Shown one piece after another: positions 24,599 through 49,786 of a DNA stretch of 64,000 nt. The stretch spans positions 62,001 to 126,000 of the forward strand of contig JADGAZ010000008.1 in the NCBI GenBank assembly GCA_015231755.1, written 5' to 3'. The notes beneath the pieces were generated by a model, which searched no databases, was not told the DNA's origin, and saw nothing but the letters and a program-made list of their open reading frames with translations. Both the position numbers and the translations under genes were made by a program. This stretch comes from Magnetococcales bacterium (lineage in GTDB: Bacteria; Pseudomonadota; Magnetococcia; Magnetococcales; Magnetaquicoccaceae). Numbering within the stretch: position 1 is the stretch's first letter; each line of letters starts with the position of its first letter.

Positions 24599-24619
24599 GG
24601 CGGACTCCTGCGGAAAGGA

Positions 24620-24949: not shown

Positions 24950-25043
24950 CCTCGTCTCCTTGGGCTGCGGGCGCGCGACGCTCGCCATGGGTGTTCATCC
25001 GCACACTTCCGGTCGCGATGCGGTCAGGATAGGGTCATCACGC

Positions 25044-25511: not shown

Positions 25512-25540
25512 GATCCGGCTCCGTTCTGGTTTGTTTAAGG

Positions 25541-28789: not shown

Positions 28790-28823
28790 GGGCCTCTCCT
28801 GAAATGGGGTTCCACCAGAAAAT

Positions 28824-28839
28824 CGCAATGGTTATGCCA
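28824..28839 (-). promoter_or_regulatory. Sigma-54 (-24/-12) promoter for nifE
   Basis: On the minus strand TGGCATAACCATTGCG has GG-N10-GC and fits the consensus TGGCAYR-N4-TTGC. It is 35 bases before the nifE ATG, so the leader is short. Together with the nifB promoter it makes a back-to-back divergent pair. Confidence 0.8.
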
Positions 28840-28880
28840 GAGACAATTAGTTGATTTATTTTGATATTTTGCCGTGATCG

Positions 28881-28929
28881 ATTGTCCGGAATCCGACCAC
28901 ATCCCCCCCTTGGTCCGGTTTCGGACAAT
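28881..28929. promoter_or_regulatory. Pair of NifA-type upstream sites arranged as an inverted repeat
   Basis: TGT-N10-ACC (28883-28898) and GGT-N10-ACA (28912-28927) each match the NifA site TGT-N10-ACA at five of six positions. The 18-base arms 28881-28898 and 28912-28929 are imperfect inverted repeats around a 13-base C-rich spacer. One site lies about 45-75 bases from the nifE promoter and the other about 70-90 from the nifB promoter. Confidence 0.55.
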
Positions 28930-28999
28930 TGTTCGCCCATTGTCGCACAAAGCCGGCGCATCGTAATAAATAGATCATTATATATCAATTAATTAAGCT

Positions 29000-29015
29000 A
29001 GGCACAGCTCTTGCT
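29000..29015 (+). promoter_or_regulatory. Sigma-54 (-24/-12) promoter for nifB
   Basis: AGGCACAGCTCTTGCT: GG-N10-GC with the -12 element TTGCT perfect and GGCAC at -24; 10 of 12 consensus positions match. It is about 50 bases before the nifB start codon. Confidence 0.8.
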
Positions 29016-29065
29016 GACCTGATATGTGTGGCACGATCACAAAAACCCTATCAAGGAGTCACGGC

Positions 29066-30427: not shown

Positions 30428-30459
30428 AAACCAACACCCAATCGAGGAGCCTGAAAACC

Positions 30460-30720
30460 ATGATCGCCTTAATCATCACCGCCGAATGCATCGCCTGCTG
30501 GGCCTGTGAGCCCATTTGTCCCAACGCGGCCATCCGGGTCAAGAATGAGGTGTTCCGCATCGACAAAAAATCCTGCACCCGCTGCGAAGGATACGGCGAC
30601 CTGCCGCAATGTGTGGAAATCTGTCCGGTGGAAGGGGCCATCATCGACGATGAAGGAACCGCCATGAATCCTCCGGGCAGCCTGACCGGCATTCCCCCCA
30701 GGGAGCCACTGCCAGCCTGA
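30460..30720 (+). CDS. 2[4Fe-4S] ferredoxin downstream of nifB
   Basis: A small 86-residue ferredoxin: CIACWACEPICPNAAI (C-x2-C-x2-C-x3-CP) and CTRCEGYGDLPQCVEICPVEG (C-x2-C-x8-C-x3-C), the arrangement found in ferredoxins encoded after nifB (FdxN/NifB-associated group). The longer spacing in the second motif is typical of that group. GAGGAG is 10 bases upstream. Probably the electron donor for NifB or nitrogenase reductase. Confidence 0.92.
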   Translation: MIALIITAECIACWACEPICPNAAIRVKNEVFRIDKKSCTRCEGYGDLPQCVEICPVEGAIIDDEGTAMNPPGSLTGIPPREPLPA

Positions 30721-30748
30721 AATCACGCCAGCCTATGGAGCAAAGACC

Positions 30749-31348
30749 ATGGAACTGTCCACCGTGTGGCGTTCAACCCGTCCACCCTTTCATCACCGCA
30801 GGCTTGGCATCCATCCAACGCTGCTGGACGCGGCCCGACACAACCCGCTTGGGGTGTGGCTGGCCCGCATCATCAGTTCCTGGTTGAATGGAGATACGGC
30901 GTTGCCGGGTCATCTCGGTCTGGGAAGTCAGGCGTTCGCGGCGTTGATGCGCTACCATTTTCCCGGGATCACCCTGCCCAATCCGCTCCTGGATGGGCGG
31001 ACGACTCCGGACCCGCAACGCGCGCCGGAACGGGAGGCGCTGATCGAATTGTTGCGCGCACACTGCGTGCTGGGTTATCCGGATGCCGACTGGATGGCGC
31101 GGATCGTGGCGGAAGGGTGTCTGGGAGAGGATCATCTGTGGCAGGATCTGGGGTTGTGGGCGCGGGAGGATCTCTCCTCCCTGCTCCAGCATGCGTTCAC
31201 CCCCCTGGCGAGCCGCAATGTGAACGACATGAAATGGAAAAAATTCTTCTACAAGCAACTGTGCGAGGCGGCGGAGATTTCCCTGTGCCGGGCGCCGTCG
31301 TGCGACGCCTGTCGGGACTATGACCGGTGTTTCGGGCCGGAGAGATGA
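30749..31348 (+). CDS. nifQ: NifQ, molybdenum donor for FeMo-cofactor
   Basis: A 199-residue protein. The C-terminal cysteine motif C-x4-C-x2-C-x5-C (CRAPSCDACRDYDRCFG) holds the Fe-S/Mo cluster of NifQ. The upstream block NDMKWKKFFYKQLCE and GHLGLGSQAFAALMRYHFPG are also typical. Its stop overlaps the ATG of draG as ATGA. It fits in the nifB-fdx-nifQ operon, where NifQ delivers molybdenum to NifEN. Confidence 0.93.
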   Translation: MELSTVWRSTRPPFHHRRLGIHPTLLDAARHNPLGVWLARIISSWLNGDTALPGHLGLGSQAFAALMRYHFPGITLPNPLLDGRTTPDPQRAPEREALIELLRAHCVLGYPDADWMARIVAEGCLGEDHLWQDLGLWAREDLSSLLQHAFTPLASRNVNDMKWKKFFYKQLCEAAEISLCRAPSCDACRDYDRCFGPER

Positions 31349-32304
31349 TATCCCCCCGCTGGAGCCCGTTACAGAAACGGGCGGTGGGGGCTTATCTGGG
31401 GTTGGCGGTGGGAGACGCCCTGGGGGCCACGGTGGAATTCATGACCCCACGGGAAATCAAGGCCAACCATGGTCGGCACCGGGAGATCATCGGCGGGGGC
31501 TGGCTGGGACTCAAACCCGGTCACGTCACCGACGACACCACCATGAGTCTGGCACTGGGGGAGGCGATTCTGCGCAACCGCCGCATCGATCCGGTGGACG
31601 CGGCCCAGGCGTTCGACGCCTGGATGCGGGCCAAACCGGTGGATATCGGCAACACGGTGCGCCGGGGCATTCTGCATTTTCGCCGCACCGGGGCACCCCG
31701 CTCGCCACCGGGGGAGCAGGACGCGGGCAACGGTTCGTGCATGCGGGTATTGCCGGTAATTCTGGCCTGTCATGGGGGGACAGAGGAAAATCTCGACTTG
31801 GCCTGCCTGCATCAAGGCCGGGTGACCCATCACAATCCCCTGGCCGAGGCGGGAACCGAGTGCATGGCCCATCTGGTGCGCATGGCCCTGACCGGCATCC
31901 AGGTCTCCGACATGCTGTCTGGACCGGTACAACAATTGGTGTCGGCCTGGCCGGTTTTCCGTTTCCGGGTGCGACCGGAGATGAGCCATCCCTCTGGTTT
32001 TATCGCCGACACGCTGCGGGCAGTATTCCAAGGGTTTTTCGACTCCGACAGCTTCGAAGAGTGTGTCACCGACGTGGTCAATCTGGGTGGCGACGCCGAC
32101 ACCACCGGGGCCATTGCCGGCATGTTGGCCGGCGCCCATCACGGGGTGGAAGCGATCCCGAAACGATGGCTCAACGCCCTGCAACCCCAGGTGGTCGAGG
32201 GTTGTATACGTCAGGCTTTGGCTTTGATCCAATCCGCGCCCCTGCCCGTCATGCCCGAGGCGGGATGGTCAAATCCGGATGTGCGCATCACCGGGACAAG
32301 GTGA
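31345..32304 (+). CDS. draG: ADP-ribosyl-[dinitrogen reductase] hydrolase DraG
   Basis: A 319-residue ADP-ribosylglycohydrolase that removes ADP-ribose from NifH and reactivates nitrogenase. Diagnostic motifs: GLAVGDALGATVEFM near the start, the di-metal site residues in TDDTTMSLALGEAI, and GGDADTTGAIAGMLAGAHHG near the end; NLGGDADTTGA is the second metal-binding site. The ATG at 31345 overlaps the nifQ stop; an upstream GTG at 31327 would also work and has a better spaced neighbour. It ends 17 bases into the convergent draT 3' end. Confidence 0.94.
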   Translation: MISPRWSPLQKRAVGAYLGLAVGDALGATVEFMTPREIKANHGRHREIIGGGWLGLKPGHVTDDTTMSLALGEAILRNRRIDPVDAAQAFDAWMRAKPVDIGNTVRRGILHFRRTGAPRSPPGEQDAGNGSCMRVLPVILACHGGTEENLDLACLHQGRVTHHNPLAEAGTECMAHLVRMALTGIQVSDMLSGPVQQLVSAWPVFRFRVRPEMSHPSGFIADTLRAVFQGFFDSDSFEECVTDVVNLGGDADTTGAIAGMLAGAHHGVEAIPKRWLNALQPQVVEGCIRQALALIQSAPLPVMPEAGWSNPDVRITGTR

Positions 32305-33121
32305 CTTCGTACAACCCTCCGATCACCAGATACTCCTCTTCCCCTTTGAGCACGCCGGGCAACAGGGCGTTGAAAAACATGATTTTAGGTATTGGAACAT
32401 CCGTTTCCAAAATTTGATCCCCAAATTCATCTGCCCGTTCCCGATTGATGGTGAATGAACTAAGATTGTTGAGCAACACCACGCACAGCCGTCGTCCCAG
32501 TCTGGCGACCAGATCGTGTTCCGCCAGCCGGTTCACCCCGCGAAACAAGGTGACGTGTTGCTGCCGGGGCTGTTGCCGGACCAACTCATATTGACAATAG
32601 GTATACAGCAGATCCAATTGCCCTTCCAGATTATTGGTGTTGTAGACCCCCGCGCTTTGTTGCCTTAAGAATCTTTGGTAATCGTCACTTTCCGGCAGGA
32701 TGCGACCGCCGAAATAACGGGGTAGCAACCCGAAGCGCGACGCCACCCAGCCTTTCAACACCGCCCCTTCCCGACCATCCGGATCGAACAGCCAGCCGCG
32801 CAACACACTCAAATAATCCGCCTTGTTGCGGCGGATGCGGGATTGGGCGTTGAAGCCCGCGCTCTCCGGCGAGGCCAGGGAAAAATAAACCGCCAAGTAA
32901 TCCATAAACTGCACAGCCCGATCCTTCGGGTCGGAGAGACGCTCCAGACGCCAAAACAAATCCTTGTGGATGATGGCCACCCCATCCAGTTCCACCCGTT
33001 CGGGCCGCAACTGAAAATCCAAACTGGCCAACACCGACGAGGGGACGTTGCACCGGTTGAACCGGGTCCACGACTCTCTGGGAGGCGGCCAGGACTCCCC
33101 CACATCCACACGCTGCGGCAT
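32288..33121 (-). CDS. draT: NAD-dinitrogen-reductase ADP-ribosyltransferase DraT
   Basis: A 277-residue mono-ADP-ribosyltransferase that inactivates NifH in the dark or with ammonium. Family landmarks: RFNRCNVPSSVLASLDFQ near the start, PVELDGVAIIHKDLFW-like sequence, SRFGLLPRYFGGRI, and LFRGVNRLAEHD. The ATG at 33121 has GGGAG six bases upstream; a TTG at 33199 would add 26 residues. Unusually draT is not in one operon with draG: it is divergent from nifH and convergent with draG. Confidence 0.92.
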   Translation of the reverse strand: MPQRVDVGESWPPPRESWTRFNRCNVPSSVLASLDFQLRPERVELDGVAIIHKDLFWRLERLSDPKDRAVQFMDYLAVYFSLASPESAGFNAQSRIRRNKADYLSVLRGWLFDPDGREGAVLKGWVASRFGLLPRYFGGRILPESDDYQRFLRQQSAGVYNTNNLEGQLDLLYTYCQYELVRQQPRQQHVTLFRGVNRLAEHDLVARLGRRLCVVLLNNLSSFTINRERADEFGDQILETDVPIPKIMFFNALLPGVLKGEEEYLVIGGLYEVTLSR

Positions 33122-33213
33122 ACTCGCTCCCTTGCGGGCCAAAGGCACCCAAAACGATTGGTTTTTTCGATCCCGAAGTCTATCGACAATTCCTTCCAAA
33201 GCTCAATCCCTCT

Positions 33214-33229
33214 TGTGATTTTGTAGACA
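33214..33229. promoter_or_regulatory. NifA upstream activator site between draT and nifH
   Basis: TGT-GATTTTGTAG-ACA is a perfect TGT-N10-ACA match, extended as TTGT...ACAA. It lies about 106 bases before the nifH -24 element, the usual distance for a NifA site. The site is symmetric, so it could also help draT, though no clear -24/-12 element faces draT. Confidence 0.8.
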
Positions 33230-33299
33230 AACGGACATTCAGACGCTTCATGTCGTATTCCAGACCTGATTTCAGGCGTGGCGAAAGTCAATTTAATGA

Positions 33300-34316
<1,017 letters not shown>

Positions 34317-34327
34317 GGAGACGGGCC

Positions 34328-35779
34328 ATGTTGACACGTGACGAAGCGGAAAAATTGATTCAGGAGGTGCTGGCGGCCTATCCCCCGGAGGCCGCCGAAG
34401 ACCGGGCCAAACATCTGGCGGTGCTGGACGGAGAAGCCCTGGAAGGCGGTTGCGGCATCACAGCCAACCGCAAATCCCTGCCCGGCGTGATGACCATTCG
34501 CGGTTGCGCCTACGCCGGTTCCAAGGGGGTGGTCTGGGGACCGATCAAGGACATGATCCACATCTCCCATGGTCCGGTGGGATGTGGTCAATACTCCCGG
34601 GCGGGACGACGCAACTATTATGTGGGGACGACCGGGATCAACGCGTTCGGCACCATGAATTTCACCTCGGATTTCCAGGAGAAGGATATCGTCTTCGGCG
34701 GCGACAAGAAGCTCGCCAAACTGCTGGAAGAGGCCAACGCCTTGTTTCCCCTCAACAAGGGAATTTCCGTGCAATCCGAATGCCCGGTGGGTCTGATCGG
34801 CGACGACATCGAAGCCGTGGCCAAGAAAAAAAGCGTGGACCTGAACAAACCCATCGTGCCGGTGCGCTGCGAAGGCTTTCGCGGGGTCTCCCAGTCCTTG
34901 GGCCACCACATCGCCAACGACACCATCCGGGATTATATTCTCGACCGTCCCAAGGCCGATGACGGCATTCAAGCCGGTCCTTACGACGTGGCCATCATCG
35001 GGGATTACAACATCGGCGGGGATGCCTGGTCTTCCCGCATTCTGCTGGAGGAAATGGGATTGCAGGTGGTCGCCCAGTGGTCCGGGGATGGCACCCTCGC
35101 CGAACTGGAACGGACTCCCAAGGTGCGGCTGAATCTGGTGCATTGTTACCGCTCCATGAACTACATCAGCCGTCACATGGAGACCAAATACGGCATTCCC
35201 TGGCTGGAATACAACTTTTTCGGGCCTTCCAGGATCGCCGACTCGTTGCGCCGCATCGCCGCCCGCTTCGATGACCGCATCAAGGCCGGCGCGGAAGCGG
35301 TGATCGCCAAATATCAACCCATGGCCGATGCCATCACCAACCGTTTCCGGCCCCGTCTGGAGGGCAAACGGGTGATGCTGTATGTCGGCGGATTGCGTCC
35401 CCGGCATGTGATCGGCGCCTATGAGGATCTGGGCATGGAGGTGGTGGGCACCGGTTATGAATTCGGCCACAACGACGACTACGACCGCACCCAGGTGGAT
35501 TTGAAAAACACCACGCTGATCTATGACGACGCCTCCGGCTACGAGTTGGAGCGTTTTGTGGAACGGGTGCGTCCGGATCTGATCGGATCGGGCATCAAGG
35601 AGAAATATGTCTTCCAGAAGATGGGCATTCCCTTCCGGCAGATGCACTCCTGGGACTATTCCGGCCCTTATCACGGTTACGACGGTTACGCCATTTTCGC
35701 ACGGGACATGGATATGACCATCAACAACCCCTGCTGGAAAATGATGACGCCTCCCTGGCGTCAGCCCAACGCCGCGTGA
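34328..35779 (+). CDS. nifD: Nitrogenase MoFe protein alpha chain NifD
   Basis: 483 residues. P-cluster cysteines are at 60 (RGCAYAG), 86 (GPVGCGQYS) and 152 ([11 protein letters not shown]); the FeMo-cofactor cysteine is Cys273 ([10 protein letters not shown]) and the cofactor histidine is in [13 protein letters not shown] near 440. The length and [13 protein letters not shown] are those of a Mo-nitrogenase rather than V- or Fe-only forms. AAGGAG sits eight bases upstream, 11 bases after nifH. Confidence 0.97.
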
Positions 35780-35855
35780 ACCCAAAAAGAAAAAATCTCA
35801 ATGTTCCACTGTCTTTCGTGTCTGCGGATGAGCAGCACGGGAGGGGAGACCCACC

Positions 35856-37427
35856 ATGAATCAAACCGCGGAAAAGATCATTCCCTGTTATCCCCTTTTC
35901 CAACAACCGGAATACCGTGACACCCTGAGAAAAAAGGGGGAAGAGTACGAAAACCGGGAACCGAAAGCCAAAATCGACGAAACCTTCGCCTGGAGTACCT
36001 CGCCGGAATATCAGGCGCTGAATTTCCAGCGGGAGGCGTTGACCGTCAATCCCGCCAAGGCCTGTCAGCCTCTGGGGGCGGTACTGTGCGCGTTAGGCTT
36101 TCACGCCACCTTGCCTTACGTGCATGGCAGTCAGGGCTGCACCGCCTATTTTCGCACCTATTTCAATCGCCATTTCAAAGAGCCGGTGGCTTGCGTCTCC
36201 GACTCCATGACCGAAGACGCGGCGGTGTTCGGCGGTCAGAAGAACATGTTCGCCGGTCTGCAAAACGCCAAGGCGCTGTACGAACCGGAGATGATCGCCG
36301 TTTCGTCCACCTGCATGGCGGAGGTGATCGGGGATGACCTGAACGCTTTCATCACCAACACCAAAAAAGATGGCCGCATCCCCACCGACTTCCCCACCCC
36401 CTACGCCCACACCCCGAGTTTCATCGGCAGCCATTTGACCGGGTGGGACAACATGCTGGAGGGGATTTTGCGCTATTTCACCCTCAACGCCATGGCCGAC
36501 AAGGTGCCGGGCAAGAGTGGCAAGATCAATCTGGTGGCGGGATTCGAGGGGTATCTGGGCAATTTCCGGGTGTTGAAACGCATGATGCAGGAGATGGGGG
36601 TTTCGGCCACCTTACTGTCCGACCCGGAGGCGGTACTGGATACGCCGGCGGATGGCAAATACCGCATGTATGCCGGAGGCACCACCCAGGACGAGATCAG
36701 ACAGGCTCCCAACGCCATCGACACCTTGTTTCTGCAACCGTGGGGAGCCGACAAAAGCAAGAAATTCGTCAAGGAGACCTGGAACCATCCGGTGACCAGC
36801 GTGGATGCGCCCTATGGTCTGGCGGCCACGGATCGCTTCCTGATGACCATCTCCCAACTGACCGGTCAGCCCATCCCCGCCTCCCTGGAACTGGAGCGTG
36901 GCCGACTGCTGGACATGATGGCCGACTCCCACGCCTGGTTGCATGGTCGCAAGTTTTCGGTATACGGCGACCCGGATTTTGTCATGGGCATGGCCCGTTT
37001 TCTCATGGAACTGGGCGCCGAGCCTGTGCATCTGTTGAGCCACAACGCCAACAAACGCTGGGGCAAGGCCATGGAACAATTGCTGGCCTCTTCCCCCTAC
37101 GGCAAAGGGGCGGAGGTGCATTTCGGTCGGGATTTGTGGCATCTGCGCTCCCTGCTGTTTGAAAAGAAGCCCGATTTCCTGATTGGCAACTCCTACGGCA
37201 AGTTCATTCAACGCGACACCCTGCACAAGGGCAAGGAGTTTGAAGTGCCGTTGATCCGCATCGGATTTCCCATTTTCGACCGGCACCATCTTCATCGTCA
37301 CACCACTCTGGGTTACGAAGGGGCCATGTACCTGCTGACCACCCTGGTCAACGCGGTGCTGGAACGGCTCGACGAGGATACCCGGGGCATGGCGGAGACC
37401 GACTACAACTATGATTTGATTCGATAG
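35856..37427 (+). CDS. nifK: Nitrogenase MoFe protein beta chain NifK
   Basis: 523 residues, full length. P-cluster cysteine contexts PAKACQPLGAVL, GSQGCTAYFRTYFNRHFKEP and SSTCMAEVIGDDL are present, as is the long N-terminal arm typical of Mo-type NifK. The start has GGAGGGGAG a few bases upstream and is 76 bases after nifD. With NifD it forms the MoFe tetramer that reduces N2. Confidence 0.97.
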   Translation: MNQTAEKIIPCYPLFQQPEYRDTLRKKGEEYENREPKAKIDETFAWSTSPEYQALNFQREALTVNPAKACQPLGAVLCALGFHATLPYVHGSQGCTAYFRTYFNRHFKEPVACVSDSMTEDAAVFGGQKNMFAGLQNAKALYEPEMIAVSSTCMAEVIGDDLNAFITNTKKDGRIPTDFPTPYAHTPSFIGSHLTGWDNMLEGILRYFTLNAMADKVPGKSGKINLVAGFEGYLGNFRVLKRMMQEMGVSATLLSDPEAVLDTPADGKYRMYAGGTTQDEIRQAPNAIDTLFLQPWGADKSKKFVKETWNHPVTSVDAPYGLAATDRFLMTISQLTGQPIPASLELERGRLLDMMADSHAWLHGRKFSVYGDPDFVMGMARFLMELGAEPVHLLSHNANKRWGKAMEQLLASSPYGKGAEVHFGRDLWHLRSLLFEKKPDFLIGNSYGKFIQRDTLHKGKEFEVPLIRIGFPIFDRHHLHRHTTLGYEGAMYLLTTLVNAVLERLDEDTRGMAETDYNYDLIR

Positions 37428-37436
37428 GGGGTGTGC

Positions 37437-37649
37437 GTGCCAGAGATCATGTTGAGACACAATGAACGGGGGGAACTGCTGTGCTATGTGCCCAAAAAGG
37501 ATCTCGAAGCGGTCGTGCGAACCGTGGAGTTCGATCAGGACGACCGGTGGGGAGGCACCCTGAGTCTCGCCAATGGGGAAAAGCTCTATCTGGAACCTTT
37601 GACCCAACGACCGCTGATCCCTGTCACCTTTCGTGTACGCAAATTGTGA
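37437..37649 (+). CDS. nifT: NifT/FixU-type small protein
   Basis: A 70-residue protein with the NifT pattern (EIMLRHNERGELLCYVPKKDLE, then WGGTLSLANGEKLYLEP). I chose the GTG at 37437 because the family begins MPxxMxR and AGGGGG lies just upstream; a GTG at 37431 or the ATG at 37449 are alternatives. It follows nifK by 9 bases, the usual position. The function of NifT is not established; it is dispensable in the diazotrophs tested. Confidence 0.88.
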   Translation: MPEIMLRHNERGELLCYVPKKDLEAVVRTVEFDQDDRWGGTLSLANGEKLYLEPLTQRPLIPVTFRVRKL

Positions 37650-37664
37650 ACCAGGAGTAAAACC

Positions 37665-38342
37665 ATGACCGTTTCAGTCCAGGAGTTGACCGAAGAGCTG
37701 GCCTTGCGCATCGGTTTGGCCAGTCGGGAATTGTCGCTGCCTTCGCCCCGCGTCCTGATCACGCGGTTGCAGGAGCTGTTTGGAGGTCAACTCCCGGACC
37801 AGGAACGGTTGAAAACCCTGACCCCCTGTCAGTTGCGCCCTTTGTTGCAACAGGATCTGCCCGATCTCACGGGCAAGACCCTCAAATCCGCCCTGCACTG
37901 GTTGACCAGTTGGGAACCGGAGGTCGCCAACCCGGTTAAGGATTCCGCCGCGCCTGTGGCGGATCATCCCCCGGATGGGGTGGTACGGGTGGCCATGGCC
38001 AGCATGGGTCATGGTCGGCTGGATGGCCATTTCGCCTCATGCAGCCACTTCATGATTCATGATGTCACCTCCGACGGGATACGCCGGGTGACGGAGCGCG
38101 CCCTTCCCCTGACGGACGAAAAGCGGGACAAGGTGGAAAGCCGTCTGGCCCTGATCCGGGACTGTCGGATTCTGGTGGCGACCAGCATCGGCGGACCGGC
38201 AGCCGCCAGAGTGACCCGCGCAGGTCTGTTGCCTCTCAAGGTGACAGACGGCATGACCGCCACGGCATGGCTGGAGGATCTGCGACAGGTCCTGGCCACC
38301 ACCCCACCGCCCTGGCTGAAACGGATCATGCATGGGGATTGA
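37665..38342 (+). CDS. nifY: NifY/NafY-type dinitrogenase assembly protein
   Basis: A 225-residue protein with an N-terminal helical (SAM-like) domain (residues 1-85) and a C-terminal cofactor-binding domain of the NifX/NafY family (from about 105, VVRVAMASMGHGRLDGHFASCSHFMIHDV). This two-domain build is that of NafY/NifY proteins, which hold apo-NifDK and insert FeMo-cofactor. It is last in the nifHDKTY unit, 15 bases after nifT. Confidence 0.85.
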   Translation: MTVSVQELTEELALRIGLASRELSLPSPRVLITRLQELFGGQLPDQERLKTLTPCQLRPLLQQDLPDLTGKTLKSALHWLTSWEPEVANPVKDSAAPVADHPPDGVVRVAMASMGHGRLDGHFASCSHFMIHDVTSDGIRRVTERALPLTDEKRDKVESRLALIRDCRILVATSIGGPAAARVTRAGLLPLKVTDGMTATAWLEDLRQVLATTPPPWLKRIMHGD

Positions 38343-40731: not shown

Positions 40732-43700
40732 TCAGGTGGCGGGTTGCGCAGACAGATGGTGATCCAGACGTCGGATCAGGGTCTGCAAGGTCGCGCCAGC
40801 CTCCACGAAGGCAAAACGATCCAGATTGGTTTCCATTTCCTCCACCAAAACCCGCAGATCCTCCGGGGCATGGGCCATCATGGGTTTCAGAGCCTCGAAC
40901 ATATCCAATCCCTCCCCCGAGGAGACATGGAGAAAGTCGGCCAATCGATGCAACACAGGTCGGATGACCGCCAGATCCAGCGGTTGCGCTTTTTCGTCCC
41001 CCCACGACTGCTGTTCGTGGCACGCCAACAGTCCGATGGATGCCATGACCCGCTTCAACGCTTGGTCGAATTGTGCCAACACCAGGGGCCACCGTTCCCG
41101 GAGATTCTCCTTGATGGCGATTTCCAGTTCCGAGGCCACCACGGACAGCTCCGTGGCGGAAAGATTGCCCGCCAGTCCCTTGATGGAATGGACCAGACGC
41201 TTGACCGGCTCCAGTCCATGTCCTTCGGCCTGCTCCAGGTGGTGACGAATGGTTTCCGTGGCCTGGGCGTGTTCGCGACCAAACGAAAGCAACAACGCAC
41301 GCAACAGCTTGTGATTGCCGTTGACCCGATCCAATGCCCGTGGCACATCAATTCCGGGCAGGATGTCGGGCAAACACGCCGCTCCGGAATCCCCGACCTC
41401 GGGAACGAGAATGGAAATTTCTTCAGGCACCACCCGCGCCATGGGCTTGATCCAGTGCAGCAGCGCTTCGTAAAGCCGACATTTATCAATGGGCTTGGAG
41501 AGATGATCGTTCATCCCCGCCGCCAGACACCGTTCCCGTTCTCCGGCCATGGCGTGGGCGGTCATGGCGACGATGGGCAGATCCCGGGGCAAAGACGAGG
41601 CGCGCATCTGACGGGTGGCCTCATAGCCATCCATGATGGGCATCTGGATGTCCATCAGGACCAGATCATAAGGGGATGCCAAAGCCTTTTCGACCCCCTG
41701 TTGACCATTTTCCGCCGCTTCCACCAGCAGACCGACACCACGCAACAGCTCCTCGGCCACCAGACGGTTGATGGCATGATCTTCCACCAGCAGCACTTTG
41801 GCGCCGCCAATCCGGGCGCGCAATCCTGCCAGATCCATGGGCGTGCCCATACCCCGGTGGGTTTTGGGACACAACGGGGCCGGTGGCAGGGTGGCGGGAT
41901 CCTGACTGGGCAAAAGCACCGTGAAAAAAAACAGACTGCCCTCCTGGGGTATGCTTTCCACCCGCATCTCCCCCCCCATCATGGCCACCAACCGTTTGCA
42001 GATGGTCAAACCCAGACCGGTTCCGCCGTAACGGCGTGTGGTGGAGCCATCCGCCTGCACAAACGGATGAAAAAGTCTGCCGACTTCTTCCGCAGTCATG
42101 CCGATTCCCGTATCCCGCACCGAAAATTCCAATTGTTCCGGGGTGAGATCATCCCGGGCACGCAGCAGACGGGCTGTGACCACGATTTCGCCACGCGGGG
42201 TGAACTTCAAGGCGTTGGCGACCAGATTGATCAGGATCTGTTCCAACCGGTAGGGATCCCCGATCACCCGGGGGGGAGAGTCGCCGATCCAGTGCAGGGT
42301 CAGCCGCAACCCCTTCTCCTCCGCCTGCCCCCGGAACAGATCCGACAGCCGATCCAGCAACTCCCGTGGCGAAAAGAGAACCGTTTCCACTTCCAGTTTG
42401 CCGGCCTCGATCTTGGAGAAGTCGAGGATGTCATTGATGATCCGCAGCAACAAATGCGAAGAGTCGGCGATCTGCCGCAGGTAGAAATGCGAACGGGGAT
42501 CCGTGGGATGCTGCAATCCCAGATCGGTCAAACCGATGATGGCATTCATCGGAGTACGGATTTCATGGCTCATGTTGGCCAGGAATTCACTTTTGGTGCG
42601 GCTGGCGGCTTCGGCCTGCTCCTTGGCCTGTTCCAGAGTGGTCATGTTCTCCTTGAGGGCCAAATCCTTGAGGTGCAGACTGGAAGCCATATGATTGAAA
42701 GCATGACCCAGTTCGGCGAACACGTCTCCGGATTCCAGATGGATGCGATGTTCCAGACGTCCCTGAGCAAACTGTTCGGCGCCAATACGCAACTGCTGGG
42801 TTCGTTCTTTGATGATTTTCTTCAGAAACAGGACAATCAGGACAAACAGAACCAGACCCTCCACGGAAAGCAGCATGAACAGCTTCTGATTCCAACTCCC
42901 GACAGCCATCACATTCTCTTCGACGCGCCCCAAATAGTCGCCCATTTCCTGCTTCATGGCGTCGATGGTGATTTCAAGATCCTGCCAGGAACGCAAGGCA
43001 CCCTTTTTCGCCCGTTCCGCCGGATCGGCCCGATAGTTCCCGAGTTGCACCTCCTCGTGATAACGCAGCAATCCGGCATGAAACCGTCTCAGATCCTTCT
43101 CAAGACCATTCAGCCAATCCGGATCGGTCCACTCCTTGGATTGGGCGATCTGCTGGAACTCCTGAAACTGGGCGAAAGCCAGTTCCATCTCCCGGATCCC
43201 CTCTTCCAGATCCACCTCCGGTCGATTCAGATAACGCTTGAGCGCCTGTTCCAGATCCAAAAAAACAGAACGGCTGGCATGACTGCGTAACCGCACCGGT
43301 TCCGGCACCTCCTGAAGACGATTATCCGGGATGATCCCGAACAGGCTCTCCCGAAAGGCCGACAGTTTCTGTTCGATCTGGGAGACCTGAGCCATATGGA
43401 TTGCGCTGGTCAACTCCCGGCGCATATCCACCTGTTTGTCCTGATACTGCACCAACGCGACCCGCAAAACCGACAACGCCTCGCTGGGAATGACGGGGGG
43501 AAACAGCAGACCCGCGGTGTGCAGATCCTGTTCGAGTTGCCGGACCTGTTGCTCAAAACCATCCAGGGAGTCCAGAATCGACTTGAAAAACGGGGGTTCC
43601 GTCTGACTGGTCATCAGAAAGGCGGCATGGGCTCCGCGGAGATGATCGTGGACTTGTTGCAGGCGTTTGAGTTGGGGGGCGTGAAAATTGATCAGGGTGT

Positions 43701-43830
43701 GGAGCGCCGCGTTGCTCTGACTGCTGTTGCGGTAGGCGATCACCACCACCGAAACCAGAATCACAAACAACAACGCAAAACCGATATTCTGGGCCGTACC
43801 GTATGGAAGACGCCACAAACGGACAATCAT
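40732..43830 (-). CDS. Hybrid sensor histidine kinase (HAMP-HisKA-HATPase-REC-HPt)
   Basis: A 1032-residue inner-membrane kinase. Order: TM helix (about 12-32), long periplasmic helical sensor domain (about 35-300, four-helix type), a second TM (about 315-335), HAMP, coiled coil, HisKA with [12 protein letters not shown], HATPase (about 520-640; with [22 protein letters not shown]), a receiver ([13 protein letters not shown] ... [16 protein letters not shown]) and a C-terminal HPt ([12 protein letters not shown]). A complete internal phosphorelay is therefore present. I took the ATG at 43830; a TTG at 43911 would overlap the acyl-carrier gene. It follows the ACP gene by 53 bases and could be cotranscribed with that cluster. 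Confidence 0.9.
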
Positions 43831-43883: not shown

Positions 43884-44108
43884 TCACAACTTCGACTGAA
43901 TGATCTGGCAAATGTCATAAAAGGAGGTCATGGATTCCATTTCATCCACCTCCAGGGTCACGCCGAACTCCTGTTCCAACGCCAGGCACAAATTGAGATG
44001 GTTGAACGAATCCCAGCCATCCACCTCTTCCATAGCGGTGGAGTCGTCAATCCGGGCGGGATTCAGATTCAGCAGATCGGCCATCAGTTGTTTGATCTGT
44101 TCTTCCAT
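43884..44108 (-). CDS. Acyl carrier protein (FkbH-associated)
   Basis: A 74-residue ACP. The phosphopantetheine serine is in [11 protein letters not shown] (typically D-S-L; here D-S-F), after an acidic helix ([15 protein letters not shown]). Its start overlaps the end of the FkbH-like gene by 62 bases (an internal ATG at 44084 would reduce the overlap). FkbH proteins load a glyceryl unit from 1,3-bisphosphoglycerate onto such ACPs. Confidence 0.85.
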
Positions 44109-46002
44109 GGTCGGCTCCAATCCGGGTGATCCACGGCGGTGTGGCGACATCGCCGCAGGTAAGGTCCAATTCCCAAAGAGTTTCGCCTTGATTGGCGTTT
44201 TCAGGGGCCACGGACGAACGAATGAATCCATGGTCCGGATAAAGGTTTTCTGCCGGGACATTCCTGGCCGTGGGAATGAAACAGCCCCGGATGCGCCGAC
44301 GGTTCAGGCGACGCGCTCCTTTGCACAATTCGGCCAGCATGGCGGTTTCGATGGTGCGTCCGATGACCCGGCAACTCAGCAAAAAGGTCTCCACCTCCAG
44401 GGTCTCCTGGTCGTCCAGACCTCTGGCCATCATCAAACCCACCACCCCGTTGTCGCCGAAACGATCCGTCACCCGCACGCCGTACACCAGCCAATCCGGA
44501 TCGTTTAGGCGTCTGGCCACCTCTTCTTCGGAATGGCGCCGGGTGGTGAGGTTGAATTGATTGGTTTTCTGGGTCAACTGGGCCGCACGGGCCACGGTGG
44601 TGGCGGTCACCGGAACGATCTCCACCCCCATCTCCAGACTGATATAATATTCCTGCAACGAACCACTCGCCATTTTCAACGCCTCGGCCTGATCCCGTTG
44701 TGCGTAAAGGGCGCTGCGGTTACGATCCTCCGCCGATACGGTCAAGGCATCGAACCAGCCGGGTTCAAGAATGGCCTCCACCGCCTCTTCGGGCCGGGCC
44801 GGAAATACGATCACGGTCACCATGGGCAAGGCGGCCCGCACTTCGGCGCACTCCACCGGGTTGTCGTCCACGAAAACCAGATGTTCCAGACCGATGTTAA
44901 GCCCCTGGGCAATAGCCCGCAAGGATTGGGACTTGGGTTGCCAATGAATCTCCTGCCGGGCGAAATGGTGAGGCTTGAGCAGCATGGCCGGATGATCCCG
45001 GAACACCTCCGCCACATCCTGGGGATTGTTTTTACTGGCAATGGCCAACAAAATCCCTCGGCTGTGAAGTTGCAACAAAACCCGCTGATAGGCCAGATGG
45101 GCGCTGCCCGGATAGTCCGGGCCCAGCTTGAGGCCATGGAGACCATCCTCCCCCACGATTCCCCCCCACAAGGTGTTGTCCAAGTCGGTGACCAGACATT
45201 TCCGGGTCAGACCCGCCGCGGCCCGCAAATATTTCAGATACTCCCCGGCCAAGCGGGGCAACATCGGGGCGGCGATGGGGGCTTTGGCCAGATGGGCCAT
45301 GCGCCGGTCGAACCACCGTTCCGTCCCGCAGCGGGCCACCAGACCGGAGTAGTCCACCACATGCAGACCCCGTGCGGCCCGAGCCCGCTCCAGCAAGGCG
45401 GCGCGCACTCCCTGGATCACCTCGGCGGCACCCGGCCCGTTCATCCCCTCCAGAATTCCCCAGGCCCGCTCCCTCGGCCCCACCAGATCGTGAATCAGCA
45501 ACAGCGCCTCGCAACGACTCCGAAAGGCAGTGATCAACGGATCGATCACCCCCATGGCCGCCGCGACCCCGTTCTCCACCGCAGAAGCCGGCAGAATCCC
45601 CCCGTCTTCATACAGATGGGGCAACAACCGTTCCCCCTCGATGGCGAGGATCACCACATCCGGCTTGAAGGCGTAAAGTCCGCTGTCGGGATTTAAAATC
45701 TCCTGGTGGTACTGGGCAAAGCCCGACACATGCCACACCACCCGCACCCCATGGGCCAACCCCAGGGCCAACAGGGCATCTTGCATGAAATCAATCGAAA
45801 AAGAGGCCAGAACCGCAACCCGCAGCGTCTTGAGTCCCAACGCCCCTTCCGGCAATTCACGGGCGACCCGGGCCACCACGCGCCAACGTCCCGCCTCTTC
45901 TCCCCGGGTCAGATAGTCCAAGGCGGCATTGCGGGTTTCAAAGATACGGTTCTGCTCCAGAGCGGTCAGAAACGCCTTGCGTGCTTCACGGATCATAACC
46001 AT
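44047..46002 (-). CDS. FkbH-like HAD-superfamily protein with acyltransferase-like domains
   Basis: A 651-residue protein. The N-terminal half (to about 290) is a SGNH-like region (VVILAIEGERLLP, LLIHDLVGP). The HAD/FkbH domain starts at KCLVTDLDNTLWGGIVGEDG (DxDxT-type motif DLDNT), and continues with IASKNNPQDV and VFVDDNPVEC. A C-terminal GNAT-like part ends the protein (TDRFGDNGVVGLMMA). FkbH-type proteins transfer a glyceryl or acyl unit from a phosphorylated donor to an ACP; here the ACP is encoded immediately downstream. AAGGA precedes the ATG at 46002 by four bases; the ATG at 45996 is an alternative. It overlaps the AAC(3) gene by 17 bases. Confidence 0.85.
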   Translation of the reverse strand: MVMIREARKAFLTALEQNRIFETRNAALDYLTRGEEAGRWRVVARVARELPEGALGLKTLRVAVLASFSIDFMQDALLALGLAHGVRVVWHVSGFAQYHQEILNPDSGLYAFKPDVVILAIEGERLLPHLYEDGGILPASAVENGVAAAMGVIDPLITAFRSRCEALLLIHDLVGPRERAWGILEGMNGPGAAEVIQGVRAALLERARAARGLHVVDYSGLVARCGTERWFDRRMAHLAKAPIAAPMLPRLAGEYLKYLRAAAGLTRKCLVTDLDNTLWGGIVGEDGLHGLKLGPDYPGSAHLAYQRVLLQLHSRGILLAIASKNNPQDVAEVFRDHPAMLLKPHHFARQEIHWQPKSQSLRAIAQGLNIGLEHLVFVDDNPVECAEVRAALPMVTVIVFPARPEEAVEAILEPGWFDALTVSAEDRNRSALYAQRDQAEALKMASGSLQEYYISLEMGVEIVPVTATTVARAAQLTQKTNQFNLTTRRHSEEEVARRLNDPDWLVYGVRVTDRFGDNGVVGLMMARGLDDQETLEVETFLLSCRVIGRTIETAMLAELCKGARRLNRRRIRGCFIPTARNVPAENLYPDHGFIRSSVAPENANQGETLWELDLTCGDVATPPWITRIGADHGRTDQTTDGRSAESESRPD

Positions 46003-46840
46003 AGCGTCCTTGCGCCGCCATTTCGCTGAAAGTGGCCAGCACGTCGCGGGCATCCAGGCACAACAGCTCCGCCCCCCCCAGGCGGGCATGACGCCACCCC
46101 CCGCGCCGTTTGAGATCCGGCACCAAGCGTGAAATGCGCCGTTTTCGGGAGATCTCCGGGTCGAAAAGTCGGGTAACCGTCACCACCGTCCCGGATGGGG
46201 TGCGGGATGACAATCGAAACGATTCACGGGTGAAGGGCGAGAAGGGCAGATGTTCTTCCAGGAGCGCCTCGGCGGCGTGGAAAAAGGTCATGGATTCGAT
46301 GGACGCCCCCAGAAACAGAATCTTGCCGTTTTCCGCCAGCAATCCGGCATACGGGGAACCGGCTCCGCAGGGGGTGGAACAGTTGGGGTGATCGCGACAA
46401 AAGGCGTCCGCCCGCTCCCCCCAGGCCGCCACCGAATGGGTGGGATGAATGCTGCGCACCACCCCCGGAGAGCGACGGAACAGCTCGGTAAGCAGTCCGG
46501 AGCGGGAAGGCGTGGCCCGCAGGTCAAACACACTCCCGGCCCGGGCCCACTCCACCGCCGTGCCGGTAAAGGGCAAAGTGGGCATGAACAGCAATCCGGA
46601 CGGTCCCACCACCTCTTGCAACACCTGGAGAATGTCACTGCTTTTCCCGGTGAAGGCCTCCAGACGATCCAGGGAAGAGTGAACCAGCAGGCAATCCCCG
46701 GTGTGAATTCCCAGACCCGTCAGGGTCTGTTTCAGGGCTTCCGGACCGAATCCCTGCCAGCGCCGGAGCCAGGCCAGACGGTGTTTTTTCCAGGCTCCCT
46801 TGACGAACCGTTTGCAACGGGCCGCAAAAGGACGAATCAT
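45986..46840 (-). CDS. AAC(3)-family (aminoglycoside 3-N-acetyltransferase-like) protein
   Basis: A 284-residue protein of the Antibiotic_NAT fold: DCLLVHSSLDRLEAF near residue 50, GLLFMPTLPFTG, DLRATPSRSGLLTELFRRSPGVVRSIHPTHSVAAWG and CGAGSPYAGLLAENGKILFLG are family landmarks. In glycan and FkbH clusters members of this family acylate amino sugars or move acyl groups, so it should not be read as a resistance gene. ATGA overlap with the upstream alpha/alpha-barrel gene indicates coupling. Confidence 0.85.
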   Translation of the reverse strand: MIRPFAARCKRFVKGAWKKHRLAWLRRWQGFGPEALKQTLTGLGIHTGDCLLVHSSLDRLEAFTGKSSDILQVLQEVVGPSGLLFMPTLPFTGTAVEWARAGSVFDLRATPSRSGLLTELFRRSPGVVRSIHPTHSVAAWGERADAFCRDHPNCSTPCGAGSPYAGLLAENGKILFLGASIESMTFFHAAEALLEEHLPFSPFTRESFRLSSRTPSGTVVTVTRLFDPEISRKRRISRLVPDLKRRGGWRHARLGGAELLCLDARDVLATFSEMAAQGRYGYDP

Positions 46841-48132
46841 GCCCGCCCCTCGATGATCCGGTCTTGCAACAGCAGGGCATCCAGGAGGTACTTGGTGGCC
46901 CAGTTGGGAAAGCCGGCGGGTTGGTACTCCCCCAGAAACATGGGAAACGATCCGGCCAAAGCCCCGCGCATGGGGGAGGACGGAACACCGATCACCTGCA
47001 ATCCCTTGAGAAAATCCAACAAACGATGACCCGCCTCCAGAAAAATGCCGTCCCCCAGAATTTGGAACAGTCGGAAACAGACCACCGCCAGTTGGGCATT
47101 GCCCGTGAGGCAGGAACTGAAAGAGGCGGGGCTCCAGTCCGCGTGAAACCGGCCCGGCAAAAAACCATCCGGAGAGAGGACATCGATGATCGGCAGCATG
47201 CCCCGACGGGCAGACTCGATCAGGGCGGTATCTCCGGCGGCGATGCCGGTTTCCAGCAGTCCCTGGAGGGTATAGCCGATGGTATGGGTCAAGGGGGCCT
47301 CGTCCCGTTCGAGGCAGTTGTGGGGAAACCAGCCATTGGACCGTTGCAGACGCATGGAGGCCCGGGCGATGCGCACCGCGGCTTGCTGACAGTTCGGATC
47401 CTGGACCAGGGTGCCGAACTGGTGCAATCCCCAGGCGCACAGACAGTTGTAGGTCTTGATGGGCCGATCGACGACAAACTGGCCATGGGTGCGCAAGTGG
47501 CCATCCCGATCCATGTCGGCGAGGAGGAAATCGGCGGCGCGTCGGGCGGCCTGTTCGATACGGGGATCGGGTTCGTGTTTCAGAAGGGCGGCAAAACCCT
47601 GGAGCACCATGCCGGTATTGAACACCGCCGGCCGTTGACGGGCCGGCGTGGTGATGGCACCGCTCTGCACCGCCCCGGAGGCCATTTGCACCTCTGCCTC
47701 CCAGTGAGCCATGGCCAAAGCCCGCTCCCGCATCAGGGCATCGGAAAACCGAATGGCGTAATCGAGCAACGAGACGATGATATAACCCGTGGTCTCCGGA
47801 TAGGATGGCCGCCAGCCATTGCCCAAAGGGGAGCGTTCCAACGGGTCGCAGGGGTAATAGCCCATGGAGACCCCATCATCCGGGGTGCTTTCCCAGGCGC
47901 GGATCAGCCATTCGGCGGCGGCATGGGCCCTCTGGCGACAGGCTCCGTCCACGGGTTGCACCCCGTTGGTCATGAAACGGATCTGATCGTTCCAGGCCAG
48001 CCACGCAAATTCGGCCTGACCCGGAAGTCGGCCCAGACGGGCGAGGTGTTCACAAAAGGCCCAATAGTGCTCCTTGAACGGGCGGGCCCGGAGACGACTG
48101 GATACAATACGTGGTATGGCGAGCGGATGCAT
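46837..48132 (-). CDS. Alpha/alpha-barrel (terpene-cyclase/glycosidase-like) protein of unknown activity
   Basis: A 431-residue protein with a repetitive helical pattern typical of (alpha/alpha)6 barrels: NGWRPSYPETTGYIIVSLLDYA (about 105), FNTGMVLQGFAALL (about 170), SNGWFPHNCLE with LTHTIGYTLQGLLETG (about 265), and FSSCLTGNAQLAVVCFRLFQ (about 345). Conserved aromatic and acidic residues line these loops. Relatives are annotated as prenyltransferase-like or hypothetical. The real substrate is not evident from sequence. It starts 27 bases after the MaoC-SDR gene and overlaps the AAC(3) gene (ATGA). Confidence 0.6.
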   Translation of the reverse strand: MHPLAIPRIVSSRLRARPFKEHYWAFCEHLARLGRLPGQAEFAWLAWNDQIRFMTNGVQPVDGACRQRAHAAAEWLIRAWESTPDDGVSMGYYPCDPLERSPLGNGWRPSYPETTGYIIVSLLDYAIRFSDALMRERALAMAHWEAEVQMASGAVQSGAITTPARQRPAVFNTGMVLQGFAALLKHEPDPRIEQAARRAADFLLADMDRDGHLRTHGQFVVDRPIKTYNCLCAWGLHQFGTLVQDPNCQQAAVRIARASMRLQRSNGWFPHNCLERDEAPLTHTIGYTLQGLLETGIAAGDTALIESARRGMLPIIDVLSPDGFLPGRFHADWSPASFSSCLTGNAQLAVVCFRLFQILGDGIFLEAGHRLLDFLKGLQVIGVPSSPMRGALAGSFPMFLGEYQPAGFPNWATKYLLDALLLQDRIIEGRA

Positions 48133-48159
48133 GGGCGAGCCGATGGTAAACGGTATTTT

Positions 48160-49383
48160 TCAGGGCATGACTTGTCCGCCGGTCAGGGGCAGATCCACCC
48201 CTGTGAGGAAGGCGGCCCCTTCTCCGAGGAGAAATGCCACGGTACGGGCCACGTCTTCCGGGGTTCCCAGACGACGCAACGGAGTGCGACCGATTTCGCT
48301 TTTGAAGATACGTTCGTTCAAATGTTCGGTCATGTCGGTACGGAGCAATCCGGGGGAGACGGTATTGACCCGGATTCCCTCTTCGGCCCACTCCACGGCC
48401 AGTGCCTTGGAGAATCCCTTGAGGGCATATTTGGCCGCGACATAATCGGCCATCTGGGCGGGCGGGGCATCCCAGACCACCTGGGACAGAATATTGACCA
48501 CGGATCCGCCACTGTTTTTGAGATGCGGAAAAGCCTGACGACACACCTGATGGACCGCCTTGAGTTGAAAATCCAGGTGGTGCATGAACTGGGACCATTC
48601 CAGATCCCGCATCGGACGATGAAAAATCTCCCCGGAGGCGGCATTGACCACGGCGTCGAGGCGGGCGAACCGTTTGAGGGCAAGCTGGAACAACCGTTCC
48701 ACGGCGTTGCCTTCCCGCAGGTCGGCCTGGATGGCGAAAGCCTCGCCACCGGCCTCACCGATTTTTTGGACCATTCGTGCGGCCTTTTCCTCGTTTTGGA
48801 AGTAGTGGATCCCCACCGCCCAGCCGGAAGCGGCCAGCAAGGTGGCGATGGCCGATCCCACTCCCCCCGTGGCGCCGGTGATCAACACGCACTTTTGGCC
48901 GACGGGAAGCGGGTCGCACTGTTCCGGGGTCGGATTGGGGGATTCCGGAAGGGCTTCGTGATCGCGAATCTTGACCCGGGCCATGCCCCCCACCGCCACC
49001 TGATCCTCGGCGTTGCGAATCTCCGTGGAAAGCAAAATGGTCTGGGTGGTGGGATTCTTGCCGATGACCCGGGCCAGGGCGGTGACGCACTCCCCCACCC
49101 GCACCGGTCGCCGGAAGGCCAGATCCTGGGCCAGATACAAGGCGTTGCGGCCTGGAATCCGCATGCCGACCAACTGGGAAAAAAGCGCGGCCAACAGCAT
49201 GCCGTGGACCACCCGGCCCTCGAAGCCGGAAGCGACGGCATAGTCTTGATCCATGTGCAACGGACTGAAGTCACCACTGACTTGCGCGAAATGGTCCACA
49301 TCGGCGGCGGCAAAGGTCTTTTCCAAACGGAACGTGTCGCCCACTTGAATCTGATGGAAGGTCAATTCATCGCAAAGGTGCAT
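48160..49383 (-). CDS. MaoC dehydratase - short-chain reductase fusion
   Basis: A 407-residue fusion: an N-terminal hot-dog MaoC/PhaJ-like hydratase (residues 1-135; catalytic Asp/His in DFSPLHMDQDYA, with GFEGRVVHGMLLAALFS), a short linker, and a FabG-type SDR domain with the glycine-rich TGATGGVGSAIA (about 165), catalytic YVAAKYALKGFS (Tyr-x3-Lys) and a C-terminal GVDLPLTGGQVMP. It could hydrate and reduce (or the reverse) a 3-hydroxyacyl chain on CoA or ACP. The ATG at 49383 is used; a TTG at 49404 would add seven residues. No clear ribosome site. First gene of the 49.4-43.9 kb unit. Confidence 0.88.
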   Translation of the reverse strand: MHLCDELTFHQIQVGDTFRLEKTFAAADVDHFAQVSGDFSPLHMDQDYAVASGFEGRVVHGMLLAALFSQLVGMRIPGRNALYLAQDLAFRRPVRVGECVTALARVIGKNPTTQTILLSTEIRNAEDQVAVGGMARVKIRDHEALPESPNPTPEQCDPLPVGQKCVLITGATGGVGSAIATLLAASGWAVGIHYFQNEEKAARMVQKIGEAGGEAFAIQADLREGNAVERLFQLALKRFARLDAVVNAASGEIFHRPMRDLEWSQFMHHLDFQLKAVHQVCRQAFPHLKNSGGSVVNILSQVVWDAPPAQMADYVAAKYALKGFSKALAVEWAEEGIRVNTVSPGLLRTDMTEHLNERIFKSEIGRTPLRRLGTPEDVARTVAFLLGEGAAFLTGVDLPLTGGQVMP

Positions 49384-49520: not shown

Positions 49521-49594
49521 TTGAACCTTCCGCAATTCCACTTTTTATCAAGAGATTGGCCTGTCAGTCAACCAACGATCCAAGGAGATCACCC

Positions 49595-49786
49595 ATGTTT
49601 GAAAGTGCGGATCTGATGCGCATCAAGCTGGACCTGCTCAAAGGGGTGCCGGCGGCTTACAGCTCACTCATGAGCCGTCTGTATCGGGAAGGACTGGCGG
49701 AAATGGACGGAGTGGACGAGGCCCGTCAATCCCGGCTGTGCGGCATTCTGGATGACTATTACGATCAATACATTCTGCGGGCCTGA
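49595..49786 (+). CDS. Small protein of unknown function under a sigma-54 promoter
   Basis: A 63-residue, helical, acidic and tyrosine-bearing protein (MFESADLMRIKLDLLKGVPAA at the start; DDYYDQYIL at the end); no signal or membrane helix and no domain that I recognise. AAGGAG is 8 bases before the ATG. It is alone on its strand and convergent with the YqaA-like gene. The strong sigma-54 promoter suggests nitrogen-, flagellar- or stress-linked expression. Confidence 0.7.
   Translation: MFESADLMRIKLDLLKGVPAAYSSLMSRLYREGLAEMDGVDEARQSRLCGILDDYYDQYILRA

Follow-up and report, generated by a model that had tools for sequence, protein, structure and literature searches.

What could be made by five tightly coupled genes that bring together an acyl carrier protein (ACP), an FkbH-type loading enzyme, an apparent aminoglycoside acetyltransferase, a fused hydratase-reductase and a barrel protein? 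The question is raised by a gene set on the minus strand, from 49383 down to 43884, of a 64,000-nucleotide stretch (hereafter, the window; G000:C8:62001-126000) of the 3.84-Mb genome of a magnetotactic bacterium of the Magnetococcales. We consider it likely that the five genes constitute a cassette for acylating a surface glycan from a carrier protein. The assignment of the AAC(3)-like protein, FkbH, the MaoC-SDR fusion and the ACP to one pathway is well supported, and computation also supports the ties of the barrel protein to AAC(3)/ACP sets and to a locus for surface glycans, as well as the presence of related sets among amino-sugar genes; which acyl group is involved, in which order the steps run, which sugar accepts the group and what the barrel protein catalyzes are what we infer.

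The original prediction described five coupled genes at this place, and all five were found, in the following order of transcription:

48160..49383, minus strand: MaoC-SDR fusion, 407 amino acids (PF01575 + PF00106/PF13561)
46837..48132, minus strand: (alpha/alpha)6-barrel protein, 431 amino acids (from predicted structure; no Pfam or NCBIfam match)
45986..46840, minus strand: AAC(3)-fold acyltransferase, 284 amino acids (PF02522, 171 bits)
44047..45996, minus strand: FkbH-type HAD-IIIC acyl-loading enzyme, 649 amino acids (TIGR01686, 307.6 bits; FkbH_N, PF21211)
43884..44108, minus strand: acyl carrier protein, 74 amino acids (PF00550, 30.7 bits)

The only gap, of 27 nt, separates the MaoC-SDR and barrel genes; the barrel and AAC(3)-like genes share an ATGA overlap at 46837-46840, read from the sequence, the AAC(3)-like and FkbH genes overlap by 11 nt, and the FkbH and ACP genes by 62 nt, with the start ATG of the ACP gene inside the FkbH frame. 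Judged by sequence, all parts except the barrel protein belong to known families.

A core of four genes that recurs and fuses

The same five-gene neighborhood, sought elsewhere as the original prediction had proposed, is present in five further genomes of the genus (L034, L035, L037, L038 and L041; protein identity of about 59-92%) and, in a more divergent form, in one genome of another family (L080, family f11). In one further locus (L039), four of the genes are on one contig and the MaoC-SDR gene ends another contig. The ACP gene is kept in all five-gene loci.

The conserved unit is smaller than the five-gene set and consists of the AAC(3)-like, FkbH, MaoC-SDR and ACP genes. In six loci, these four components are encoded by only two adjacent open frames, an AAC(3)-FkbH fusion of 838-868 amino acids directly followed by a MaoC-SDR-ACP fusion of 468-517 amino acids; the six loci span Magnetococcales (L176, L200, L201), Alphaproteobacteria (Sinorhizobium sp. 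RAC02, L226; Maritalea myrionectae, L227) and Gammaproteobacteria (Erwinia rhapontici, L228). Rahnella sikkimica (L233) also has the AAC(3)-FkbH fusion; there, two separate genes are annotated for MaoC and SDR. The fusion is the strongest computational sign that the core four belong to one pathway. A DUF4910/DUF2172 protein is a constant neighbor of the fused AAC(3)-FkbH set in the loci from Magnetococcales, Sinorhizobium and Maritalea (L176, L200, L201, L226 and L227).

Outside of the fused loci, the core four are found unfused and rearranged in L174, L175 and L178, and L177 has the FkbH, MaoC-SDR and AAC(3) genes with no ACP gene detected. A triad of MaoC-SDR, FkbH and ACP, free of AAC(3) and barrel genes, is present in three genomes (G061; G081, loci L115 and L116; G143, locus L173). 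Within 3 kb of 64 FkbH frames, a sample partly biased because some of the loci were picked for AAC(3), we found an ACP gene in 43 cases, MaoC plus SDR in 30, AAC(3) in 17 and all three in 13. Across 48 genomes of the order, about 14 of the 38 AAC(3)-like matches have an FkbH match no more than 3 kb away, where by our own estimate, with about 1.6 FkbH matches per 4-Mb genome, a fraction of one would be expected by chance; the five-gene grouping is not a product of chance. Given that the FkbH label changes at least five times over strongly supported branches of the AAC(3) tree, in which some branches are long and individual placements unsure, the pairing has been repeated rather than inherited as a single neighborhood.

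Scattering of the genes among relatives, which the original prediction had named as evidence against a functional set, was observed in part: the barrel gene occurs alone, and in one family so does the AAC(3) gene, yet the core four recur together, even as fusions. Family f9 has its AAC(3) homologue away from the barrel locus, between a glycosyltransferase and an ACP (and FkbH in one genome), and in family f4 it lacks an ACP or loader and is found beside a WecG/TagA glycosyltransferase in three genomes. Because the barrel and AAC(3) genes are at different loci in these two other families, the barrel is best described as a separable partner and the five genes together as an arrangement of the genus or family.

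Proposed loading, modification and transfer of an acyl group

The AAC(3)-like protein carries, both in Pfam and in annotation pipelines, the name of an aminoglycoside 3-N-acetyltransferase, and it far exceeds the gathering cut-off of the Antibiotic_NAT family (PF02522, 171.3 bits versus 25). Its best NCBIfam match, AAC_3 (NF033082), nevertheless reaches only 106 bits against a curated equivalog cut-off of 270, and the models of the aminoglycoside AAC(3) subfamilies score far lower still; moreover, an ACP and/or a loader lies within about 5 kb at 25 of the 35 AAC(3)-like loci that were read among the 38 places in the order. The possibility that this is an aminoglycoside-resistance gene whose neighbors are unrelated is thus extremely improbable, and the drug-resistance reading was rejected on the sub-cut-off scores and the FkbH fusions. 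The positions HP-x2-S and H-x2-E are conserved as in the Antibiotic_NAT family, and the best profile match in the PDB is FrbF, an AAC(3)-fold enzyme of a natural-product pathway. A segment of about 15-20 residues that is present in the solved acetyl-CoA enzymes is missing from the ACP-linked AAC(3)-like proteins, which fits the use of a different acyl carrier, without proving it. Because the protein is covalently fused to FkbH in six loci, we propose that it would perform the transferase step, from ACP to a sugar amine, with transfer to an amine suggested by the chemistry of the AAC(3) family combined with the FkbH fusion.

The FkbH protein scores 307.6 bits against a curated cut-off of 146.65 in TIGR01686, retains the HAD motif DxDxT (as VTDLDNTLWGG) and has 3slr (BF1531; E 1e-38) as its closest solved structure. 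The ACP exceeds its cut-off (PF00550, 30.7 versus 20.8 bits) and contains the phosphopantetheine serine in the motif GWDSF. In the ACPs found beside AAC(3) genes in the absence of FkbH, WGS replaces WDS at the phosphopantetheine serine (L103:8896-9123, L104:10304-10531 and L111:9284-9511). The fusion protein matches PF01575 (67 bits, cut-off 27), PF00106 (150 bits) and PF13561 (169 bits); its MaoC domain contains the motif VSGDFSPLH, in which GDFSPLH satisfies the R-hydratase pattern GD-x2-P-L-H, and its FabG-like SDR domain has TGATGGVG for TGxxxGxG and YVAAK for Y-x3-K. On these motifs, we propose that the fusion would dehydrate and reduce an ACP-bound acyl group.

The formation of glyceryl-ACP by FkbH and an ACP has been described (PMC7489565), and by this family precedent the FkbH protein of the window would place a C3 unit on its ACP, namely glyceryl from 1,3-bisphosphoglycerate. 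Given that the set contains no ketosynthase, the ACP-bound acyl group altered by the MaoC-SDR fusion is most simply the FkbH product: the MaoC domain would remove the 3-hydroxyl of glyceryl-ACP, yielding the enol of pyruvyl-ACP, and reduction by the SDR domain would yield lactyl-ACP. The AAC(3)-fold enzyme would then move the hydroxyacyl group from the ACP, and not acetyl from CoA, onto the free amine of an amino sugar, and the barrel protein would be an epimerase, lyase or trimming hydrolase of that sugar or of the growing glycan.

The acyl group itself could be a different one. The usual substrates of MaoC and FabG-like SDR domains are 3-hydroxyacyl and 3-oxoacyl thioesters, and bacterial amino sugars commonly bear 3-hydroxybutyryl amides; accordingly, the MaoC-SDR fusion might turn fatty-acid intermediates into (R)-3-hydroxybutyryl or a different hydroxyacyl group, with FkbH priming or editing the ACP without contributing any retained carbon and the AAC(3)-like enzyme still acylating an amino sugar. 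A KAS III gene alongside MaoC-SDR, FkbH and ACP in L173 is compatible with such a route. This variant, which does not exclude the cassette interpretation, is doubtful though worth keeping in view: the five-gene set has no ketosynthase or acyl-CoA ligase, and FkbH and AAC(3) form one protein in six loci, so that the FkbH product adjoins the transfer step.

The barrel protein and the surface-glycan context

The barrel protein matches no Pfam family up to E = 10 and no NCBIfam model, has no apparent signal peptide and shows no convincing relative among solved structures by sequence. Its AlphaFold2 model (pLDDT 92.7, pTM 0.93) is an (alpha/alpha)6 barrel for which the best solved fold is the GH88 unsaturated glucuronyl hydrolase 3wiw (Z 33.5, 336 residues, 3.0 A), with cellobiose and N-acylglucosamine 2-epimerases at Z 30-33 (9l8i, Z 32.7). 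The modeled fold is one of carbohydrate-active enzymes; it does not give the reaction. An alignment of 33 family members contains 43 invariant columns, with conserved regions SYPETTGY, FNTG, HTI-Y, TG-AQ and FPNWATKY. The family extends over Magnetococcales, Planctomycetota, Acidobacteriota, Bacteroidota and haloarchaea; a protein of the Pseudoalteromonas vps cluster could be a distant member, on a profile comparison that covers only 85 columns (probability 86%). The haloarchaeal relatives, annotated as 'prenyltransferase/squalene oxidase repeat' proteins, have wecB, UDP-sugar dehydrogenases, sulfatases and glycosyltransferases as neighbors. Other Magnetococcales have the barrel fused to a SAM methyltransferase or next to one, in surroundings that include glycosyltransferases, asparagine-synthase-type proteins and the O-ligase PEP_O_lig_1. 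We propose that the substrate of the barrel protein is the glycan modified by the acylation enzymes, or a lipid-linked or nucleotide-linked precursor of it.

Phyletic profiles over the 48 genomes of the order, whose counts are not independent of the species tree and are inflated by shared ancestry, connect the barrel to the same context. PEP_O_lig_1 is present in 29 of the 32 genomes with the barrel and in 3 of the 16 without it (20/20 versus 1/10 among genomes at least 90% complete), and the AAC(3)-linked glycosyltransferase in 25 of 32 and 2 of 16, respectively (19/20 versus 0/10). When only the genomes at least 90% complete are considered, a close AAC(3) accompanies a close barrel in 12 of 12 cases, against 0 of 18 otherwise. 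Counted by genus, the O-ligase occurs in 12 of 12 genera with the barrel and in 1 of 5 without, and barrel, glycosyltransferase and ligase are all missing from the sister genus g2. In the window's genome, PEP_O_lig_1 (TIGR03097) is encoded on another contig (C4:152319-153692). This exosortase-A-associated ligase exceeds its cut-off in 31 of the 48 genomes and the XrtA exosortase (TIGR03109) in 0 of 48, and XrtA has no match in the genome of the window; a use of the sugar by exosortase A was rejected on this absence.

Sugar genes also surround related sets outside of the order. Eleven Bacteroidota loci (L045-L050, L052, L054 and L065-L067) share the order barrel, AMP-ligase, ACP, GNAT and AAC(3), with DUF7033 genes on one or both sides, and in L055 FkbH takes the place of the AMP-ligase as loader, next to AAC(3), the barrel and a small DSI-motif protein that resembles an ACP; the loader, AMP-ligase or FkbH, is thus interchangeable. 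Most of the Bacteroidota loci also encode a protein of 300-320 amino acids that may be FemAB/VimA-like. The DUF7033 protein scores 162 bits against the cut-off of 440 for VimE, the UDP-diacetamido-glucuronate deacetylase model of NCBIfam, and is therefore a relative only. According to the proposal for the Wbp/Vim pathway, VimE exposes the amine of a sugar, which VimA then acylates anew with serine or glycine (PMC7468200). By analogy, a deacetylase beside an ACP-linked acyltransferase would fit this logic, and the Bacteroidota sets possibly represent a variant linking-sugar pathway. The fused pair of Maritalea is surrounded by PseB, above its cut-off, and a NeuB-type synthase, and that of Sinorhizobium by PseI, also above its cut-off, and a cytidylyltransferase. 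These surroundings are thus of the pseudaminic/sialic type. Such enzymes lead to nonulosonic acids, the precursors of which bear amines available for acylation. In Cetobacterium and Pseudoalteromonas, AAC(3) has an O-antigen polymerase or vps-type genes as neighbors, and a glycosyltransferase directly adjoins AAC(3) in four Magnetococcales genomes and in one Polarisedimenticolaceae locus where the barrel is also present. In four genomes of family f9 (L101, L103, L104 and L111), the glycosyltransferase, AAC(3) and ACP genes close an MshE-type pilus operon, a hint of pilin glycosylation. As a general role, pilus glycosylation was rejected, given that in the other genomes read, including that of the window, the glycosyltransferase is not accompanied by such pilus genes.

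The original prediction had left a glyceryl- or hydroxyacyl-derived group to be attached to a sugar, lipid or protein. A single acyl-loading pathway holds, and the amine of a surface-glycan amino sugar is most likely the acceptor; lipid and direct protein attachment lose ground.

Several observations weigh against a role in surface-glycan acylation. In addition to the ancestry-related inflation of the phyletic counts, ACP and loader are both missing from the vicinity of seven close AAC(3) relatives in family f4 and of three more. In the window, no glycosyltransferase or polymer gene adjoins the set, the neighbors being signaling genes and a nif cluster. Finally, the fused sets of Erwinia and Rahnella are accompanied by an aminotransferase, a CDP-alcohol phosphatidyltransferase, an ATP-grasp protein and an exporter, surroundings that look like an undescribed small-molecule cluster. 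The neighbors in Erwinia rhapontici (pERA53, L228) and Rahnella sikkimica (L233) also include a HAD hydrolase, and the exporter is of the MFS type.

The last of these contexts suggests an alternative in which the product of the set is a small N-acylated secondary metabolite (a signal or siderophore-like compound), with the acyl part supplied by FkbH, ACP and MaoC-SDR, amidation by the AAC(3)-like enzyme and cyclase-like or hydrolytic tailoring by the barrel protein. The best-known occurrences of FkbH and stand-alone ACPs are in polyketide pathways, and the match to FrbF points in the same direction as the exporter and ATP-grasp genes. The set itself, however, has no PKS, NRPS or exporter genes, the barrel and AAC(3) track surface-glycan genes across genomes, and sugar or polysaccharide loci host the related genes in Maritalea, Sinorhizobium, Pseudoalteromonas and Cetobacterium; we regard the metabolite alternative as unlikely and retain the acylation of a surface glycan as the preferred interpretation.

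The flanks of the set add two features that adjoin it directly:

40732-43830, start at 43830 inferred: hybrid histidine kinase (HAMP, HisKA, HATPase, receiver and Hpt domains)
49556-49786, plus strand: small divergent open reading frame upstream of MaoC-SDR

The kinase gene lies about 54 bp downstream of the ACP gene and may be co-transcribed with the set; its homologues also follow the ACP gene in L034, L035, L039 and L041. The small divergent frame keeps its position in most loci of the genus, including the barrel-only loci L036, L088 and L089. Further upstream of MaoC-SDR, a VTT-domain protein and an HD-GYP protein are encoded, and the remainder of the window is occupied by nif, urease and transport genes. 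The nif cluster (23447-38342) encodes a homocitrate-synthase-like protein, nitrogenase components, a NifH-like protein and a NifB-like radical SAM protein. With these genes in the rest of the window, the set is outside of any visible glycan locus here. Nothing in the neighborhood points to a magnetosome link, for which no dedicated test was made.

Relation to known systems

A limited literature search yielded no description of AAC(3)-FkbH or MaoC-SDR-ACP proteins, no AAC(3)-type enzyme that works with an ACP and no mention of the barrel family; nor was an earlier report found that combines AAC(3), ACP and a glycosyltransferase, or FkbH and a capsule, an absence that in a search of this extent proves little. 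A wider and distinctly tentative proposal, which we rate as rather improbable in its full extent, is that a branch of the AAC(3) 'resistance' family consists of carrier-protein-dependent N-acyltransferases with a widespread role in making surface sugars, that its FkbH form includes a ketosynthase-free route in which MaoC-SDR converts glyceryl-ACP, derived from glycolysis, to lactyl-ACP for attachment to amino sugars, and that the barrel proteins are a new carbohydrate-active family acting on the same glycan. Should this be true, proteins labeled as aminoglycoside acetyltransferases would, in many chromosomes, be sugar acyltransferases fed by carrier proteins, with consequences for the annotation of resistance. 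In its fused form, the set is a compact two-protein system that could be reconstituted in vitro, and the barrel family now has a testable context.

Among characterized systems, the tetronate and methoxymalonyl polyketide modules (Mad7/Mad8 and Mad14/Mad12; PMC7489565) share with the window set an FkbH-family loader and an adjoining stand-alone ACP. The window set differs from them in having no polyketide synthase, FabH-like release enzyme or FkbK/FkbI-type dehydrogenases, and in the presence of the MaoC-SDR fusion and the AAC(3)-fold acyltransferase; a FabH-like tetronate-forming enzyme is found neither among the five genes nor among their immediate neighbors. A precedent for FkbH in glycan loci is cj1302 of the flagellin-glycan locus of Campylobacter (PMC7099621). 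There, as in the set proposed here, FkbH belongs to a sugar-modification locus, in that case one that decorates nonulosonic acids. The neighbors of cj1302 are cj1303, a FabH, and cj1304, an ACP; neither a MaoC-SDR fusion nor an AAC(3)-fold or barrel protein is known to us from that locus.

The barrel has the (alpha/alpha)6 fold in common with the GH88/GH105 and AGE/cellobiose 2-epimerase families (Z 30-33), from which it is set apart by 8-19% identity, the lack of a Pfam match and invariant residues that appear to be its own. With the Wbp/Vim pathway, the common logic is that a sugar amine is exposed and then re-acylated. VimE relatives flank the barrel sets of Bacteroidota, which go beyond that pathway by adding the AMP-ligase, ACP, AAC(3) and barrel; the window set differs from it in the presence of FkbH and in having no VimE gene beside it. 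The AAC(3)/Antibiotic_NAT acetyltransferases FrbF (3sma), YokD (2nyg) and AAC(3)-IIIb (6mb4) belong to the same sequence family as the AAC(3)-like protein of the window, which falls below the curated AAC(3) cut-offs and whose kin adjoin, or are fused with, a loader and are accompanied by an ACP.

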